From: a virus
Reading direction: 5' to 3' (one strand)
Length of the DNA: 45,870 nt
Virus record (IMG/VR): IMGVR_UViG_3300030419_001603
Span: 1 to 45,870 of that record
A program made the position numbers and the translations under genes. Under the pieces are notes generated by a model, which made no database searches, was not told where the DNA came from, and was given only the letters and a program-made list of their open reading frames with translations. This document shows positions 3,084 through 45,870 of the stretch, piece after piece (within the stretch, counting starts at the first letter, position 1; each line of letters begins with the position of its first letter).

Positions 3084-3276
3084 GATACAAGAGAAGTTCA
3101 CGGATACTTTTGGATGGGAGAGAGGCATAGAATTAATGCTATCTACTGCATCTAATGTTAAGAAAGGTAAAACAGTATATGAACTATCTTTATCTGAAGA
3201 AAATAATCTAATAAAGTCATTAAGAATAACATACAATAAGGAGTTAAAATGGCAAGAAAAAGAAAAACACAACTAG
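3061..3276 (+). CDS. Hypothetical protein, 71 residues
   Basis: Not recognised. GTG start with GGGGGAG upstream. Sequence WNEIQEKFTDTFGWERGIE followed by a lysine-rich helix; compact and helical. It overlaps both neighbours (23 and 28 bases), in keeping with tight operon packing. It precedes the winged-helix gene and could be a small DNA-linked accessory protein, but nothing in the sequence proves this. Confidence 0.6.
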   Translation: MEIKKWNEIQEKFTDTFGWERGIELMLSTASNVKKGKTVYELSLSEENNLIKSLRITYNKELKWQEKEKHN

Positions 3277-3449
3277 AGAAAGTAAGAGACTACCTATTTA
3301 CAGGTAAAAAACTTACAGCTAAAACTGCAGTTAGTAGATTTGGTATCTATAGACTTGCGGCAGTAGTCTTTGAACTGAGAAATAATTTCGGTATGAAGAT
3401 ATTAACTGACAATACTAAAGGGTATGCTATATATTCTTTAAGTAAGTAG
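3249..3449 (+). CDS. Winged helix-turn-helix DNA-binding protein (HTH_39-like)
   Basis: 66 residues. Residues 5-60 read as one helix-turn-helix domain: KVRDYLFTGKKLTAKTA, then the SRFGIYRLAAVVFELRN recognition helix, then a short wing ending in GYAIYSL. This layout matches the small phage helix-turn-helix family that controls or marks early operons. ATG with AAGGAG eight bases upstream. It is the last gene before a strong hairpin (3461-3493), so it closes the P1 operon and may regulate it. Confidence 0.7.
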   Translation: MARKRKTQLEKVRDYLFTGKKLTAKTAVSRFGIYRLAAVVFELRNNFGMKILTDNTKGYAIYSLSK

Positions 3450-3460
3450 TAAGTAATCGT

Positions 3461-3493
3461 AAGTGTGGGGTTAGTTATTCTAACCCCATACTT
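3461..3493 (+). terminator. Hairpin terminator-like structure after the P1 operon
   Basis: AAGTGTGGGGTTAG (3461-3474), loop TTATT, CTAACCCCATACTT (3480-3493): a 14-bp stem with one G-T pair. It begins 12 bases after the winged-helix stop codon. What follows is AU-rich rather than a clean U run, so it could attenuate or protect the message rather than fully terminate it, since genes on the same strand continue downstream. Confidence 0.55.
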
Positions 3494-3526
3494 AATATAT
3501 ATATTAGAATTTGTTTCCTATGGTTA

Positions 3527-3575
3527 GGGCGTACCTTGAGTTTTGTTTTGTTGTTTCGTTGTCTCTAAAACGCCC
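3527..3575 (+). other. Possible structured leader upstream of small genes
   Basis: GGGCGT (3527-3532) can pair with ACGCCC (3570-3575), enclosing a 37-base loop that is almost all T and G. It lies between the hairpin at 3461-3493 and the ATG at 3605. It may be a leader or processing element; a six-pair stem with a long loop is weak evidence on its own. Confidence 0.25.
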
Positions 3576-3604
3576 AAAGAATTAATAATAAAAGGATTAA
3601 TATT

Positions 3605-3715
3605 ATGCCTACTCCATTTATGTGTCACGGATGTGACTCACCAACTATGAATAAGTCTGGTATCTGTGACAGGTGCAGTAGGAAATTAGATAAAAAAAAC
3701 AAAGAAGAGGAGTAA
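3605..3715 (+). CDS. Zinc-ribbon microprotein, 36 residues
   Basis: Starts MPTPFMCHGCDSP and contains CHGC (7-10) and CDRC (21-24), one four-cysteine zinc knuckle, followed by a Lys/Glu-rich tail. ATG with AAAGGA nine to fourteen bases upstream; ends three bases before the next gene's start. Similar tiny zinc fingers are common in phage early regions; the partner is unknown. Confidence 0.6.
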   Translation: MPTPFMCHGCDSPTMNKSGICDRCSRKLDKKNKEEE

Positions 3716-3718
3716 GAA

Positions 3719-3853
3719 ATGAGATACTATTGGGAAGCATTATTTAGTTCAGAATACTTTCCCTATTGGGAATTTACTATGCTAATGATGTTATGTCTTC
3801 AGATTAGTCATATATGGAGACTACATAGAATAGAAAAAAAGATAGACGGTTAA
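3719..3853 (+). CDS. Small membrane protein, 44 residues
   Basis: Not recognised. An aromatic N-terminus is followed by a hydrophobic stretch (FTMLMMLCLQISHIW, about 19-33) that could span or lie on the inner membrane, then a basic end (RLHRIEKKIDG). GAGGAG ribosome site inside the end of the previous gene, so the two are coupled. Confidence 0.5.
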   Translation: MRYYWEALFSSEYFPYWEFTMLMMLCLQISHIWRLHRIEKKIDG

Positions 3854-3995
3854 ATAAAGATTATAAGTGGGGAGTAATAGTTACAATAATAATTAATAAA
3901 CTTAATCCCATAAGCAGAACACATAAGCGAATGGGTTTATAGATTACAGTTGTTTTTCAGATTAATATTGATAACAAAAAATTAATTGAGTTAAA

Positions 3996-4064
3996 ATGGT
4001 TGGCTACCTATATTCAATAGGAATTTTACTCTCCACTTATATAATTAAATATGAAAAAAAATAA
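3996..4064 (+). CDS. Possible membrane micropeptide, 22 residues
   Basis: ATG at 3996 opens a peptide that is nearly all hydrophobic (LYSIGILLSTYIIKY) with a Lys-Lys end, overlapping the following gene by 14 bases. A weak GAG lies upstream. It may be a real micropeptide or only a coupling leader. The rest of 3854-4050 is AT-rich with nothing else recognised. Confidence 0.3.
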   Translation: MVGYLYSIGILLSTYIIKYEKK

Positions 4065-38435: not shown

Positions 38436-38747
38436 ATGGCAAAGGAGATAAGGATAGAACATCAGATATTAGAAGGTATCAAGACAACTATGAAAAGATT
38501 TTTGGTAGCAACCTTGATAATACTACAACAGGAAGACCTAGATATAAACAAGATGTTCCAAGACGCAAAGTGGGAACAGGTAGAAAATACAACTAGTCAA
38601 GGATATGAGGTAGAGAAGGTCACTATGGTGGCAGGAGTTCGTGGAAATGAAGCAGAACATGAGATATTAGACTTTTTATATTATAGGGTAAGAACTAATA
38701 AGCCTCAAATTCCCTCAAAATTAGCTGAAAAGCTAAACATTCGATAG
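38436..38747 (+). CDS. Hypothetical protein, 103 residues
   Basis: Not recognised. N-terminal helix with a mildly hydrophobic stretch (FLVATLIILQQED), then KWEQVENTTSQGYEVEKVTM and EHEILDFLYYRVRTN. First gene behind P2. The ribosome site is weak (GAAAAGATATG), unlike most neighbours. May act at an early stage of infection. Confidence 0.65.
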   Translation: MAKEIRIEHQILEGIKTTMKRFLVATLIILQQEDLDINKMFQDAKWEQVENTTSQGYEVEKVTMVAGVRGNEAEHEILDFLYYRVRTNKPQIPSKLAEKLNIR

Positions 38748-38917: not shown

Positions 38918-39088
38918 ATGGAATGTTGGCATTGTAATGAAGATTTAATATGGGGTGGAGACTTAGATGATGACCGAGAAGACGGAACAGAGTTAATAGT
39001 AACTAATTTGTCTTGCTCTAACGATGAATGCGACACTGTATACAATATCTACCACACATATAACAAAGAAAAAGAGGGAAAGAAGTGA
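38918..39088 (+). CDS. Zinc-finger protein, 56 residues
   Basis: MECWHCNEDLIWGGD at the N-terminus and TNLSCSNDECDTV later: paired C-x2-C (C3, C6) and C-x4-C (C33, C38) positions. The ECWHC-LIWGGD-TNLSC layout is a recurring phage zinc-finger family. Overlaps the next start (GTGA). Probably an early host- or DNA-interaction protein. Confidence 0.65.
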   Translation: MECWHCNEDLIWGGDLDDDREDGTELIVTNLSCSNDECDTVYNIYHTYNKEKEGKK

Positions 39089-39318
39089 AAACAAGATTTG
39101 ATAAAGCTTTAGCTAATGCTTACGATGGAGAGAATAGCCACGATAATATCAACAAAGCTATAGAAATAGCACGAAATCTAAAAATAATAGATATATTAGA
39201 GCCATCTAGTAAAACTATAGGCGAAATAGCAGAAATACTTTCTAGACTAAAAAGTGCAGATAAGCTAGAAATAATAGATTTACAGGATTTTACAGGTAAT
39301 ATAAACACCTATTCTTAA
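39085..39318 (+). CDS. Hypothetical protein, 77 residues
   Basis: Not recognised. GTG start overlapping the previous TGA. Helical: NINKAIEIARNLKIIDILEP, then IGEIAEILSRLKSADKLEII. No cysteines. Last gene before the large non-coding region. Confidence 0.6.
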   Translation: MKTRFDKALANAYDGENSHDNINKAIEIARNLKIIDILEPSSKTIGEIAEILSRLKSADKLEIIDLQDFTGNINTYS

Positions 39319-39372
39319 AAAATAGCCAAATAATGTGTGTCAGCCTTTCTTGCGCTTATGCCCCCCCGTCCT

Positions 39373-39405
39373 TTCCCGTTCGAAATTTCGAATTCCCGTT
39401 CGAAA
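39373..39405 (+). repeat. TTCGAA repeat cluster
   Basis: TTCCCGTTCGAAA occurs twice (39373-39385 and 39393-39405). Between and over them is the perfect 14-base palindrome TTCGAAATTTCGAA (39379-39392). Three TTCGAA sites occur in 26 bases. Directly upstream of the five larger palindromes, suggesting one regulatory locus. Confidence 0.7.
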
Positions 39406-39413
39406 AGTGGAAT

Positions 39414-39586
39414 TGAGATTGAGTCTCATTAGCATTTGAATATCCCTCTTGAGATTGCGTCTCATTAACAATAGACACCATATATTCTTATTGATACTAA
39501 GTCTCATTAGCAACAAGATTCCCATATGCCTTAATGAGATTAGGTCTCATTATCAATAACACTATCCTTATTGAGATTAAGTCTCA
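39414..39586 (+). repeat. Five spaced palindromic iterons
   Basis: Five copies of a 15-base near-palindrome, core TGAGATTnnGTCTCA, start at 39414, 39450, 39492, 39535 and 39572 (the third is degenerate: TGATACTAAGTCTCA). Four of the five are followed by TTAnCA. Spacing is 36, 42, 43 and 37 bases, close to 3.5 or 4 helical turns. The pattern suits protein-binding iterons or operators. Each could also form a small hairpin. Confidence 0.8.
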
Positions 39587-39940
39587 ATAAATTCCGAAAA
39601 AACATATACCTCTATTTGGCTCATATTTGCCGAATATGGCGAGATTATTCAAAACGGGCATAACCCTACCCTAAAAAGCTAAGTCCAACAATATTAGCAC
39701 TTACGGGAATCACGCCTAAAATAATCGCTACACCTCGTCGAAATTAGAGGCCATTTATCATAGTATTTATACATATATTATACTCGTTTTCTCCATAAAC
39801 TCCTCTCTAAACTCCCTCAGTAAAATAATTTAAAATAGTTCTAGGTTTTTAATTTATACCTTATTATATTCATATACCGTATATTTATTATATGGTGATT
39901 TTTGACAATTAGACAAACAACCCAAAAAAAGAGGTATATT

Positions 39941-40297
39941 ATGAAACTAACATGGAAAGCGTTTTTAAAACTTCATCTAATCGCATGGAAAGAAAACGGA
40001 AAAAAATCTGGTTTATCTTTTGAGGCTCACCAAACTCAACATAGAGAATCATTAATTAAGCAAGGTTTTGAAATTCCAAAATCTGGTCAGTCTAGTAATA
40101 GAGCTAAAGACTATCTAGAGCATATAAACTCTATGAGTAATCCTAGAAGTGATATCAAAGAGTTTAAGGCTGAACTAGAGAATATGTTATATAGCTATGA
40201 AATACTTACTAATAACTATAAAGAGACTTTAATTAGTCTTGGTAAGGAATTCGGATATAGTTACGGGAAACTTAGTCTAAACTGGGCTAAGAAGTAA
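39941..40297 (+). CDS. Hypothetical basic protein, 118 residues
   Basis: Not recognised. The frame extends back to 39902, but ATG 39941 has GAGGT upstream. Basic N-terminal helix (MKLTWKAFLKLHLIAWKENG), then FEAHQTQHRESLIKQGFEIP and helical C-terminal half. Located just downstream of the palindromic repeats, so an origin- or operator-binding role is possible but unproven. Confidence 0.6.
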   Translation: MKLTWKAFLKLHLIAWKENGKKSGLSFEAHQTQHRESLIKQGFEIPKSGQSSNRAKDYLEHINSMSNPRSDIKEFKAELENMLYSYEILTNNYKETLISLGKEFGYSYGKLSLNWAKK

Positions 40298-40923: not shown

Positions 40924-41090
40924 AAGAAATTACTAGAGATAGTAGCAACCCATTAAAGAGAGGTAATATAGATGAAAGGGTAATAGAACATATCACGAAT
41001 AGTAAATATAATAAGTAGAGACTATGGTTTCTACAGAGTTTCCCCTCTTAGTATTTCATAATAGAAATCAGAGGTTGGAGATTCTAAATA

Positions 41091-41134
41091 GCCTAGTATG
41101 GTATATATAGAGAGTTCGAGTCTCTCTCTAGGCT
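41091..41134 (+). ncRNA. tRNA-like acceptor/T-arm half structure
   Basis: GCCTAG (41091-41096) can pair with CTAGGC (41128-41133). Between them a perfect T arm: GAGAG (41110-41114), TTCGAGT loop (41115-41121), CTCTC (41122-41126). The TTC-G/A loop and G-C closing pair are canonical for tRNA positions 54-60. D and anticodon arms are absent; only about 13 bases replace them. A tRNA remnant, a tRNA mimic or an attachment-like tRNA 3' end is possible. The rest of 40924-41156 holds no gene. Confidence 0.35.
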
Positions 41135-41156
41135 CTAATAGATAAGGAGGTAGTAG

Positions 41157-41297
41157 ATGCCTAAAGGTAAGAGAAAAAAACAGTTCTCTAATTATAGTAC
41201 CTATAAGTTAGTAGATGGTACTAAGTTTAGAGCTAGAAATCTAGAAGATGCTAAAATCTATGCAGATAAAGTAGAGAGTAAGCTAGTAGATGTCTAA
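41157..41297 (+). CDS. Small basic protein, 46 residues
   Basis: MPKGKRKKQFSNYSTYKLVD, then GTKFRARNLEDAKIYADKVE. AAGGAGG ribosome site six bases upstream. The basic N-terminus is followed by a helical, mixed-charge half. Overlaps the next gene by eight bases. Unrecognised. Confidence 0.6.
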   Translation: MPKGKRKKQFSNYSTYKLVDGTKFRARNLEDAKIYADKVESKLVDV

Positions 41298-41421
41298 GCT
41301 AGAGAACATAGTAATAGATATAGTAGAGTATGCTCTAGAAGTAGTAGAGGGATTCGAACACCACCTATTTCTAGTAGCATACTTCTATATAATAATCGTA
41401 GTATTAAAAACATATCTATAA
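41290..41421 (+). CDS. Small membrane protein, 43 residues
   Basis: N-terminal acidic helix (IVIDIVEYALEVVEGFEHH) then a transmembrane segment (LFLVAYFYIIIVVLKTYL). Start overlaps the previous stop. Contains two CTAG sites in a stretch unusually rich in this tetramer. Unrecognised. Confidence 0.55.
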   Translation: MSKLENIVIDIVEYALEVVEGFEHHLFLVAYFYIIIVVLKTYL

Positions 41422-41503
41422 GGAGAATAGTAGTAGTTAAAGTATTGATAGAAGTATGTCAATAAGAGATAAGTTAAGTAATAACAGTTAATTAGGAGAC
41501 AGT

Positions 41504-41650
41504 ATGAAAGAGATAATTCATCATCTACTTGGCTCTTGTGGAGAAGGTCATGTTAGTCTATTGACCATTTTCTCTAGTGGTATTGTTTATCTATATAAAG
41601 ATTATATAGTACAAGCAATAAAGGAGATAAGAGATGTTCTATTCAAATGA
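41504..41650 (+). CDS. Small membrane-associated protein, 48 residues
   Basis: MKEIIHHLLGSCGEGHVSLL then a hydrophobic segment (TIFSSGIVYLYKDYIVQ). Ribosome site GGAG eight bases upstream. Overlaps the first amidoligase start by 17 bases, so it is probably co-translated with it; it might anchor or supply a substrate to that enzyme, an idea only. Confidence 0.55.
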   Translation: MKEIIHHLLGSCGEGHVSLLTIFSSGIVYLYKDYIVQAIKEIRDVLFK

Positions 41651-43466
41651 AGCTCTATTAATTAATACTAGATATGCAAGGTTCACTAATTATAAATCCT
41701 TTAGAGGAATTAATATTAGAACATTACATAGTAATAGACAAAGTAAGGCTATAGATAGTGAGTTGTTTAGAGATGTAAATAGTAGAATGGTTAGAATAGT
41801 AGATGTATTAAAAGACAATTCAGCTAATAAAGACAATAGATTAGTAGTTCTAGTAAGATTAATTAATGAGCTAGATAGGTCATATTCTAAATACTTAGTA
41901 TGTAGACCAACCGACCTAATATATTGTAGTAGAGAGTTGCATACAGTAGAATATGCACATAGTGTAGCATATGGAGGATTCTTAATAAACTATTACAAAA
42001 GTGCATCAGTAGAAAAACATTCAGTTATAACTGAGCCCGACCACTATAAAGGGTTTCATGGAATAACAAAATCAATTCGTCATATTCTACCACTATATAA
42101 GAAGTTACTAGATGGAACATTTGTAGATAAGTTTGATTGTAGAATAAAAGATAATAATAGATTCTATCTAAATAAATTTATTAGAAGAGCTATTAAAAAG
42201 TGTATTACATTCGAAGAGCATAATCCTGTAATCTATGAAAGTTGTTACTCTTGTAATAATATAGGTGGAATTTATAGGCGTAAGCAGTTTGAAGATGTAG
42301 TAGAACACTATTGCGATTGGTGTTATAGTAGTACACAAATACCATGTGATATATGTCTAGATAGCTTTCCTGTAATGGATTTAGTAGAAGCTAGAACTAT
42401 GGGTTCTATAGCAGATTTATACCTATCTAATGATATCTATAAAAGTTGTGAACCATGTATTAATTCATTCTTTAGGTCTTGTGATAGATGTAAGGAAGTA
42501 AAATATATAGACCTAGAGAAAATTAGAGGGTTATCTACTTCAAGTGAAAAGAGAAGATATAGAGATAGATGGCTGAGAGATAGAGATAGTAAACTTACAA
42601 GAGTAAATCATTCTAGTCTATGTTATAGTTGTACAAATATGAGACTTACAGGCATACTAGGTACTCCATATAGATTTAGAAGTTTACCAGATAAGTTCGC
42701 AGGTAAGAGTGAGTTTAATAGATTTGTTGGTATAGAAAGCGAGGTTATAACAGAATACTGTAGTGTAGATGACTATGTAGATAATGCTGAAATACCTAAA
42801 CACTTTGAAGCTATAGAAGATGGTTCTCTAAATGAAAATGGTGTAGAATTTAGAACTACTAGACCAATAATAGGAGAACAGGTAGATAACGCTCTAATGT
42901 CATTAGAGTATACTAATGTTAATGAATGGAATGAGGTAGATGAGAGTTGTGGAGTACATATACATATGAACGCTATAGACTTTGGATTTAAAGAGATAAA
43001 ATCAGTTCTATTAATAATGTCTAGAATACAAGACTTAATATATGAAAGCATACCAGAAGGTAGAAGAAGTACTCAGTATGCTAAGCCTATAACTATGAGT
43101 ACTAAAGACATAGCCAATATAGACAATTTACCTACTCTATTAAATAGCTACTATGGTATGGAGAATAGTTATATAGATGATAGTAAGTACAATACGGCTA
43201 GATATATAGGTACTAATATACACGCTAGGCTCTATCATGGTTCAATAGAATTTAGATATCATGAAGGTAGCGTAAACTCTAAGCCTATAAAAGATTGGAT
43301 ACTATTCCTTAATAGAATAATGTCTAAATCTAAAAAATTAAGTAGAGACAATAGTCTTTACAATAAGATAATTTCTAATAAGACTCAATCTATTGATATA
43401 CTTAGAGATGTAACAGGTACAAATGGTGTTGAGTATATAGAAAAACGAATAGATAAATATTGTTAA
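41634..43466 (+). CDS. Zinc-ribbon amidoligase (COOH-NH2 ligase), paralogue 1
   Basis: 610 residues. N-terminal region 1-200 unassigned; 204-333 holds six CxxC pairs (204, 227, 238, 272, 283, 330), enough for three zinc fingers; 360-600 is the ligase: VGIESE (365-370), EDGSLNENGVEFRT (395-408), CGVHIHM (439-445), and HGSIEFRYHEG (535-545) with RYIGTNIHARL just before. These match the Amidoligase_2 signatures GxExE, DGS...E and CGxHvH, whose residues bind ATP, metal and the acyl group in a glutamine-synthetase-like fold. It would join an amine to a carboxyl (an amide or gamma-glutamyl bond); substrate unknown. AAGGAG ribosome site. The long zinc-finger insert before the ligase is unusual. Confidence 0.85.
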   Translation: MFYSNEALLINTRYARFTNYKSFRGINIRTLHSNRQSKAIDSELFRDVNSRMVRIVDVLKDNSANKDNRLVVLVRLINELDRSYSKYLVCRPTDLIYCSRELHTVEYAHSVAYGGFLINYYKSASVEKHSVITEPDHYKGFHGITKSIRHILPLYKKLLDGTFVDKFDCRIKDNNRFYLNKFIRRAIKKCITFEEHNPVIYESCYSCNNIGGIYRRKQFEDVVEHYCDWCYSSTQIPCDICLDSFPVMDLVEARTMGSIADLYLSNDIYKSCEPCINSFFRSCDRCKEVKYIDLEKIRGLSTSSEKRRYRDRWLRDRDSKLTRVNHSSLCYSCTNMRLTGILGTPYRFRSLPDKFAGKSEFNRFVGIESEVITEYCSVDDYVDNAEIPKHFEAIEDGSLNENGVEFRTTRPIIGEQVDNALMSLEYTNVNEWNEVDESCGVHIHMNAIDFGFKEIKSVLLIMSRIQDLIYESIPEGRRSTQYAKPITMSTKDIANIDNLPTLLNSYYGMENSYIDDSKYNTARYIGTNIHARLYHGSIEFRYHEGSVNSKPIKDWILFLNRIMSKSKKLSRDNSLYNKIISNKTQSIDILRDVTGTNGVEYIEKRIDKYC

Positions 43467-43490
43467 TAACAGAAAATAAAGGAGAGAACA

Positions 43491-44444
43491 ATGTGTGGAA
43501 TATTCGGTTTCGCTAAGACTAGCGAAAAGCAGAATGACAATCAGCTAGAAATCCTTAAGAGATTACTAACTGAGCTTACAGACGAATCTTCTATAAGAGG
43601 TACTGATAGTACGGGATTTTCTATAATAAATCCCAAAGCTAGATATACATATAAGACTCTTATGGATTCATCTGAGTTAGTGGATAGTAAAGATTGGTCT
43701 ATCATACTTGATAAAGTAGATAGAAAAACTACTATCGCTATGGGGCATGTTAGACTAGCAACAACAGGAGATGTAAAACTAGAGAACGCTCACCCTTTTA
43801 ATATAGGTGATGTTACAGGTGTACATAATGGTATAATACATAACTACAATTATGTAGCTAGTTCTATGGGTAAGCCATCTCCAGATGTAGACTCCCAAGT
43901 TCTATTTCAATCACTTAATAGAAATGAGATGAGTAAAGCCTTCGAAGATATAAATGGAGACTTTGCTATTACTTGGGTAAAAGATAGTAATAAGAAAGTA
44001 CACCTAGCTAGAGAGAGTGGCAGACCTATGGTAGTATCGTATTGGAAGAAGGCTAGAGTTCTATTCTGGGCTTCTACTAGAAGCATTATGGAAGAGGCTA
44101 TGATTAGAGCAGGTTTGAGACTACCAATAAGTAATGTACCAGAGGATTATATATTTACATATGATACTGATAGCTTTGATGGTAGAACTAATCATGAATC
44201 TGTAGGGTTTGAGACTATTAGCCAAGATGACTACTTATATACCTCGTACTATAATTGGGGAGCTACTAAGTATTACCCTTCTCCAGCTACTAAGTTTCTA
44301 AATAGTAATACGGGTAGAACTTTAAAGTGCGACTATTGTTATGAGTATGTACCACAGGCTGAAGTATGGTTAGATGGATATAATAGAAATGTGTGCCTTG
44401 ATTGTGAATATATAGAAGGAGTTAATACTTGTGATAAAAAATAA
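43491..44444 (+). CDS. Class II glutamine amidotransferase with C-terminal zinc ribbon
   Basis: Releases ammonia from glutamine. 317 residues. Cys2 (MCGIFGF) is the Ntn nucleophile; RGTDSTG (36-42), GHVRLATTG (85-93), NAHPF (99-103) and HNG (112-114) form the glutamine site of GFAT/asparagine-synthetase-type GATase_6 domains. No sugar isomerase or synthetase domain follows; instead, residues 280-305 hold CDYC and CLDC, a zinc ribbon like those on the two flanking amidoligases. It presumably feeds ammonia to them or directly transfers it. AAGGAG ribosome site. Overlaps the next gene by 14 bases. Confidence 0.9.
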   Translation: MCGIFGFAKTSEKQNDNQLEILKRLLTELTDESSIRGTDSTGFSIINPKARYTYKTLMDSSELVDSKDWSIILDKVDRKTTIAMGHVRLATTGDVKLENAHPFNIGDVTGVHNGIIHNYNYVASSMGKPSPDVDSQVLFQSLNRNEMSKAFEDINGDFAITWVKDSNKKVHLARESGRPMVVSYWKKARVLFWASTRSIMEEAMIRAGLRLPISNVPEDYIFTYDTDSFDGRTNHESVGFETISQDDYLYTSYYNWGATKYYPSPATKFLNSNTGRTLKCDYCYEYVPQAEVWLDGYNRNVCLDCEYIEGVNTCDKK

Positions 44445-44739
44445 GAAAGTTATACTAGTAGGTTTTCCAGACCCTGTAAAACTTAAATCAAAGAAGTATG
44501 TAATTGAGAAGCTATATGAAAAAGCTAGAAAGAATCCTTTTCTAGTTAATAGCTCCTACAAGGAATACTTAGAGTTCTTAATAGAACAAATGGAGACATT
44601 AAGTAATGAGAATATTGATATAGATATAGAATCAAAAGATGTAGAGTCTAAGATATACGATACACTTAAGAAACTTAATTGGTTAAAGGTAATAAACGCA
44701 TTTATAGTGGGAGTTATCACTACAAACATAGGAGTCTAG
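44431..44739 (+). CDS. Hypothetical protein between amidotransferase and second amidoligase, 102 residues
   Basis: Not recognised. GTG start overlapping the amidotransferase. Basic N-terminal half (VILVGFPDPVKLKSKKYVIE), acidic-helical middle (NENIDIDIESKDVESK), and a hydrophobic C-terminus (VINAFIVGVITTNIGV) that could enter the membrane. Position inside the cassette, one base before the second ligase, suggests a partner, possibly an anchor or substrate. Confidence 0.65.
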   Translation: MIKNKKVILVGFPDPVKLKSKKYVIEKLYEKARKNPFLVNSSYKEYLEFLIEQMETLSNENIDIDIESKDVESKIYDTLKKLNWLKVINAFIVGVITTNIGV

Positions 44740-44740
44740 T

Positions 44741-45870
44741 ATGAGTCAAGATAAGAAAAATACTTTTACTTGTGTAGAGTGCCAAGAGAAATACAATCAT
44801 GATAGTGTTATATCTATGGAAGTAGATGTAGATGGGCTTTGGTGTGAGGATTGCTATTATGAAGTTTATTGTAGTTGTGATGCTTGTGGAGAAAATGTAT
44901 TAGTTGAAGAATCTCATAGTGCATGGGATGCCTACTATTGCTATGATTGTTTCAATGAATCATATGTCTATTGTGAATCTTGTGGAGAAACTGAGCATAG
45001 AGACGATGCTTCATATGGCAATGATGGGTATTATTGTCAAAACTGTTATGGAGGAGAACAGATATTAATAAGTAGATTAGAAAACTTAAAACTACCTATT
45101 TCTTCTAGATTAACAGAAGAGAAAGACTACAGTAGTGACTTCCCTGTTAATAGAATGGTTGGTATAGAAGTAGAGTGCCTAATCCCAGATGAAGATGGTA
45201 TAGATACGCCAGATTATTGGACTACATGTAGTGATGGCTCAATAAATACATCAGATTTTGAAGGGTTCTCTGGAGTAGAGATGGTATCATACCCTGCAAA
45301 TTCTGTAAAACTATTAGATAGTATAGTACATTTAATGGATTGGAAAGATAAATACAACGCAATAGTTAATAGAAGTTGTGGACTACATGTACACTTTAAC
45401 TCTCTAGATATGACTCCAAGAGAAGTCGCTCATGTAGGCATAGTATATAAATTCTTTCAAGGAATGCTTAAAGATATGATGCCTAATTCTAGACAGGATT
45501 CTAATTGGTGCAAAGATTTTGAATTAGATAATAACTCATTGAGAAATGTAGAGACAGAGGATTCATTAATAGACTTGTACTATAATGTAATGATGGACTC
45601 TGTTCCTTCTACAGAAAAATACAATGATGCTAGATATTGTGCTTTAAACATTCACTCTAGATACTATCATGGTAGCTTAGAGTTTAGACTACATTCAGGC
45701 ACTATAAATCAATGGAAAATAGTGAATTGGATATCTATATTAAATATTATAATAAACAAAGGAATAGAGATATCTAAATATAAAGATGATAAGTTCAAAG
45801 AGTACATCTCATCATCTTATCTTGAACATATTGTACCTACATTTGGAGAGGACTTAAGTTCCTATATTAA
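44741..45870 (+). CDS. Zinc-ribbon amidoligase, paralogue 2 (runs off the window, continues at 1-40)
   Basis: 376 residues visible, 389 when joined to 1-40. Six CxxC pairs in residues 11-102 (CVEC, CEDC, CDAC, CYDC, CESC, CQNC) give about three zinc fingers; then the ligase: VGIEVE (140-145), SDGSINTSD (164-172), CGLHVHF (213-219) and HGSLEFRLHSG (310-320). Corresponding motifs in paralogue 1 have the same order. It lacks that protein's long N-terminal region. Both ligases flank the amidotransferase in one operon, so they may act on different substrates or in two steps. Start ATG two bases after the previous stop. Confidence 0.85.
   Translation, partial: MSQDKKNTFTCVECQEKYNHDSVISMEVDVDGLWCEDCYYEVYCSCDACGENVLVEESHSAWDAYYCYDCFNESYVYCESCGETEHRDDASYGNDGYYCQNCYGGEQILISRLENLKLPISSRLTEEKDYSSDFPVNRMVGIEVECLIPDEDGIDTPDYWTTCSDGSINTSDFEGFSGVEMVSYPANSVKLLDSIVHLMDWKDKYNAIVNRSCGLHVHFNSLDMTPREVAHVGIVYKFFQGMLKDMMPNSRQDSNWCKDFELDNNSLRNVETEDSLIDLYYNVMMDSVPSTEKYNDARYCALNIHSRYYHGSLEFRLHSGTINQWKIVNWISILNIIINKGIEISKYKDDKFKEYISSSYLEHIVPTFGEDLSSYI

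Follow-up and report, generated by a model that had tools for sequence, protein, structure and literature searches.

We describe an array of five Fur-type boxes, four full and one partial, in a marine phage DNA of 45,870 nucleotides (IMG/VR virus record IMGVR_UViG_3300030419_001603, positions 1 to 45,870; the whole stretch is here termed the window), and favour, with moderate confidence, the reading that these boxes are bound by Fur of the host (or by a very close Fur-family protein), and not by a phage protein, as an iron-responsive switch in the control region of a rightward operon. Computation established the box itself, the Fur-type nature of its architecture and specificity, its conservation and its position in one particular interval, and the class-I CRP sites in that interval of sister phages. 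We infer that Fur binds here and that a promoter responds; for the direction of the effect, likewise inferred, repression by iron-loaded Fur is our default guess. By this mechanism, iron-loaded Fur dimers, probably two overlapping on each box, would coat some 170 bp upstream of the promoter of the rightward, presumed early, operon, and expression of that operon would be made dependent on the iron state of the host.

The repeat unit and its non-coding interval

An earlier note on this DNA had reported five palindromes at 39414-39586, regularly spaced on defined helical faces and lying in the only large gene-free region of the window. The five palindromes do exist: TGAGATTnnGTCTCA occurs exactly at 39414, 39450, 39535 and 39572, and the third copy, at 39492, is TGATACTAAGTCTCA, with two mismatches to that sequence. 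Their reported spacings of 36, 42, 43 and 37 were reproduced, and the window holds no further copies of TGAGATTnnGTCTCA beyond these five; at two mismatches or fewer, 8 occurrences were observed against about 2 in shuffled sequences, a count of 8 being reached by no shuffle. The core repeat that had been described is present as part of a longer conserved unit, which extends 6 bp further to the right to form a 21-bp box. In pooled phage copies this full box reads TGMKAnTGAGnCTCAnTMKCA (21 bp) with conserved A/T flanks, and conservation at positions 17, 18, 20 and 21 stays strong among copies picked on the 15-bp core alone. Regular placement on the helix was not borne out: 118 spacings of related arrays gave no significant 10-11 bp periodicity (p 0.10-0.22), and the irregular spacing of the boxes indicates that helical phasing is not a defining feature. 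Nor is the region the only large one free of genes, since 40924-41633 (710 bases) and 3450-4050 (601 bases) are also devoid of ORFs of at least 60 aa, both of them containing small ORFs.

Pooled copies of the box have dyads at positions 8, 11 and 14, as expected for a Fur box made of overlapping 7-1-7 units with a 6-bp offset. The phage sequence is accordingly an inverted repeat of about 19-21 bp in which such heptamer pairs can be read, and a published Fur-DNA geometry has two Fur dimers seated on 7-1-7 repeats with a 6-nt offset (PMC7536154). Symmetry of the box profile (r) is 0.87 about position 8, 0.80 about position 11 and only 0.35 about position 14, which indicates that the left 7-1-7 unit is the stronger in the window's family. 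E. coli Fur boxes (GATAATGATAATCATTATC; 9-1-9 and 7-1-7 offset-by-6 geometry) resemble the phage box in their 19-21 bp dyad with hexamer-like periodicity, in the overlapping 7-1-7 units offset by 6 bp, in the A/T flanks, and in being recovered by the phage matrix described below. The phage box differs from them in its conserved GWC centre, where the E. coli box has TAA, in matching only 10-13 of the 19 letters of the E. coli consensus, and in its occurrence as 3-6 boxes across 150-250 bp.

Features of the interval and its neighbours are collected in Table 1. The same interval in relatives contains box arrays, class-I CRP promoters, or both. Its right half in the window differs from that of relatives and offers weak promoter candidates only; a sigma70 promoter scan of this region returned candidates in no excess over shuffles and no evident promoter. 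Almost every relative has a different gene in first place after the array. Within the early operon, 41634-45868 holds a glutamine-amidotransferase-like gene flanked by two amidoligase-like genes. A search for DNA similarity between the array region and named phages found none.

Table 1. Features of the box array and adjoining DNA (window coordinates)
Feature	Coordinates	Strand	Remarks
Conserved small gene	39085-39318	+	Left edge marker of the interval in relatives
Non-coding control region	39319-39940	+	Between small gene 39085-39318 and variable gene 39941-40297
Block AAAAAATAGCC...TGTGTGTCAGCC...CCCCCCC	39320-39370	+	Some 50 bases with a C tract at the end; similar across all relatives viewed, with and without boxes
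Two tandem TTCCCGTTCGAAA... repeats	39373-39412		Fast-changing short-repeat zone in relatives
Fur-type box 1, TGAGATTGAGTCTCATTAGCA	39414-39434	+	Matrix score 32.5; 0 mismatches
Fur-type box 2, TGAGATTGCGTCTCATTAACA	39450-39470	+	Matrix score 25.8; 2 mismatches
Fur-type box 3, TGATACTAAGTCTCATTAGCA	39492-39512	+	Matrix score 31.5; 1 mismatch
Fur-type box 4, TGAGATTAGGTCTCATTATCA	39535-39555	+	Matrix score 25.3; 2 mismatches
Partial box 5, left 7-1-7 unit TGAGATTAAGTCTCA only	39572-39586	+	Score 8.7; right half degenerate
Weak sigma70-like candidate TTATCA-18-TATACT	39755-39784	+	Downstream of boxes
First gene after array, 118 aa	39941-40297	+	No homologue in relatives examined; variable accessory slot

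Conservation and spread of the arrays among phages

A terminase search yielded 80 related viral loci. Many of the relatives that reach the interval after the homologue of gene 39085-39318 have box arrays in the same position, in copy numbers of 3-6 that turn over, and other family members have one box or none. The repeats are thus conserved in related phages, and the lack of conservation that the earlier note had allowed for did not materialise. Four family records of 42-45 kb (G004, G007, G009, G011), which may lack their ends, contain no box anywhere, and the array is therefore dispensable. Those array-bearing relatives that were viewed have a promoter-like stretch after their last box, which places the boxes upstream of, and not over, this apparent promoter, unlike a classical Fur operator.

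Exact CRP sites (TGTGAN6TCACA) number 8 in 934 kb of related loci and 7 of these 8 fall inside this interval, the independent count being slightly lower because L012 and L013 are near-identical. Six of the sites have their centre 24 bp before TTGACT, a -35 box, which is the class-I distance. L012, L014, L017, L011 and L054 have, after the homologue of gene 39085-39318, a CRP box spaced from a -35 hexamer by the class-I distance, and the last two loci carry a CRP site and the boxes together. (L005 and L013 are one contig of 63,940 bases with two different terminase genes of the family, and may be a chimeric assembly.) Occurrence of CRP sites here suggests that the interval is the control region of the rightward operon, taking inputs from host regulators; it looks like a host-regulated control region.

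Arrays are also carried by at least six further phage groups in which no proteins shared with the window's family were detected, and between array-bearing groups no common proteins were found at E 1e-5, in comparisons of short stretches. The TTGMKANTGAGWCTCANTMKCAA pattern retrieved 72 stretches from viral contigs and 0 in a reversed control, and 53 of the 59 box clusters of newly found loci lie outside ORFs of at least 90 aa by a crude ORF test. Such similar rows of boxes in unrelated viruses suggest that phages tap or trap host iron control.

Fur-box arrays of enterobacterial type were found in the injection-stop region of phage T5 (a stretch matched by 547 records); many T5-like phages have them in non-coding DNA, and so does Phapecoctavirus, which is unrelated. 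In T5 the Fur-box-like array (L139:557-726; phage T5 9549-9718) lies inside the annotated injection stop signal, and a longer array occupies L230:928-1560 in the T5-like Salmonella phage NR01. A cluster of canonical Fur-type boxes (L228:1476-1590, L229:1505-1590) lies in a 1.2-kb non-coding stretch of Phapecoctavirus, right after which a CDS of 342 bases is annotated in phAPEC8. These arrays resemble that of the window as Fur-type boxes in non-coding phage DNA, and differ in belonging to other phages, in using the E. coli/Salmonella box dialect, and in having no early promoter identified nearby. That the dialect differs between enterobacterial and marine phages is what binding by host Fur would predict. 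Our literature search found no report of the T5-like or Phapecoctavirus arrays as Fur sites.

Specificity of the box and its probable binder

A matrix derived solely from the box copies of the window and of its terminase relatives served as an independent check and was scanned over six 20-kb pieces of E. coli MG1655 containing nine promoters known to be regulated by Fur. It placed a site among the top three per 20 kb for 6 of the 9 (fepA-fes, fepD-entS, fepB-entC, fhuE, exbB and fiu), and all three top matches in the fep-ent region were Fur promoter sites; the sites of cirA, fecI and fecA were not in the top three. By comparison, 300 matrices with permuted half-site columns recovered a mean of 0.59 promoters, and 1 of the 300 reached 6. 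The box and proven E. coli Fur sites thus have sequence specificity in common. Assigning a host through named relatives was rejected, with terminase identity below 30% and capsid identity below 28%.

A paired-box scan over 257 Gb of bacterial genomes gave nine chromosomal matches, in Poribacteria, Verrucomicrobia, Planctomycetota and one cyanobacterial bin, and single boxes in those genomes outnumber a reversed control by 26 to 1. Bacteria carrying the box have it upstream of iron and peroxide genes, namely feoB, a gene for a BFD-like ferredoxin with an AraC-type regulator, and ahpC. Other chromosomal boxes lie by DUF4856, multicopper-oxidase-like, porin-like and uncharacterised genes, several without a known iron role. 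At two Poribacteria sites (L130:7548-7664 and L135:5825-5941), four boxes recur at intervals of exactly 32 bp, with a row of DUF368-like, NAD kinase and recN genes downstream.

The Fur family (PF01475) was represented in 0 of 26 array-bearing or related phage records, a result that argues against a phage-encoded Fur regulon and points to host Fur, not a neighbouring phage protein, as most likely the binder. A multi-operator switch by the early genes, one of two proposals in the earlier note, is close to the reading that we prefer insofar as the array is a multi-site one for protein binding; the neighbouring phage proteins that it named for binding tests are less likely binders. The idea of operators for a phage-encoded repressor or activator, made from a nearby gene, is improbable. 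The array does adjoin early genes, with conserved small neighbours at 39085-39318 and 38436-38747 and a wHTH protein at 3249-3449 as candidates, but the same box recurs in phage groups without detected shared proteins and at iron genes of bacterial chromosomes, and the downstream gene 39941-40297, which had been put forward as a binder, is not conserved, having no homologue in the relatives examined even though the array is conserved.

Competing explanations and significance

The main rival to an iron-responsive switch, possible though rather unlikely, is that the array serves as a decoy for Fur. Multiplying phage genomes would bring hundreds of arrays, titrate host Fur, and thereby derepress iron uptake or alter Fe-regulated physiology, with no control of a phage promoter needed. 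Such a decoy would suit the several boxes per genome with their loose, unphased spacing, the fast turnover of box copy number, and the differing places of non-coding boxes (beside terminase-small genes, downstream of genes, and in the T5 injection-stop region); against it, the window's family keeps one syntenic box position, directly upstream of a promoter region (CRP class-I in sisters), and some phages have a single box only. Counting against the switch, in turn, are the scan of the window that gave no evident promoter, the placement of the boxes upstream of the apparent promoter in relatives, the cirA, fecI and fecA sites that fell outside the top three, the arrays of T5 and Phapecoctavirus, which have no obvious promoter role, and those members of the phage family that do without boxes. 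The two explanations are not mutually exclusive.

The other proposal of the earlier note, an iteron-type replication origin, was not supported and is very improbable. Iteron origins, for example lambda ori and plasmid iterons, resemble the array in having tandem short palindromic repeats near replication genes; the window further offers an A/T-rich stretch to the right of its repeats, a DnaB helicase with no initiator recognised among the neighbours, and a cumulative GC-skew minimum near 39.9 kb (at 39878). Around that minimum the curve hardly changes between 38.2 and 39.9 kb, and the coding strand switches at the same place, which explains the signal equally well; GC skew was set aside as origin evidence on account of this confounding. 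Differing from iteron origins, the array is dispensable in the family, as the four box-less relatives attest, is irregularly spaced, and is of a box type common to the promoters of iron and peroxide genes in chromosomes. Least probable of all is a site recognised for packaging (pac) or by the small terminase: several phage groups do have their boxes 85-320 bp from a terminase-small-like gene, but the array of the window's family is 2.3 kb from terS, and one box is common to groups without detected shared proteins and is also found in chromosomes at iron genes.

Previously known Fur sites of phages belong to cargo genes, as in the iron-regulated promoter of a cargo gene of Stx1 phages (PMC10042803) and the Fur-regulated sit operon of lambdoid phages (PMC6969025). 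The array of the window is like these in placing host Fur sites, here predicted, on phage DNA; in those phages the site is at a cargo-gene promoter, whereas the window has its array in the control region of a presumed early operon, with no iron cargo detected. A literature search covering few subscription papers found no report of multi-box Fur arrays in phage control regions, and nothing relevant on a link between T5 and Fur or on the letter string of the box.

We suggest, tentatively and with less confidence than for the switch itself, that arrays of host-type Fur boxes were acquired again and again by unrelated virulent phages, as a dedicated device that couples their development to host iron control and acts as an iron-sensing switch or as a Fur sponge; in T5-like phages, the array at the injection-stop region might also play some part in two-step DNA transfer. 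Marine bacteria are limited by iron, and iron-uptake receptors are the entry route of many phages. If this suggestion is true, recurrent arrays of sites for a host iron regulator would tie infection to iron status, T5 with E. coli K-12 would offer a ready test, and an unannotated class of repeats would become a readable signal that may help to predict hosts.
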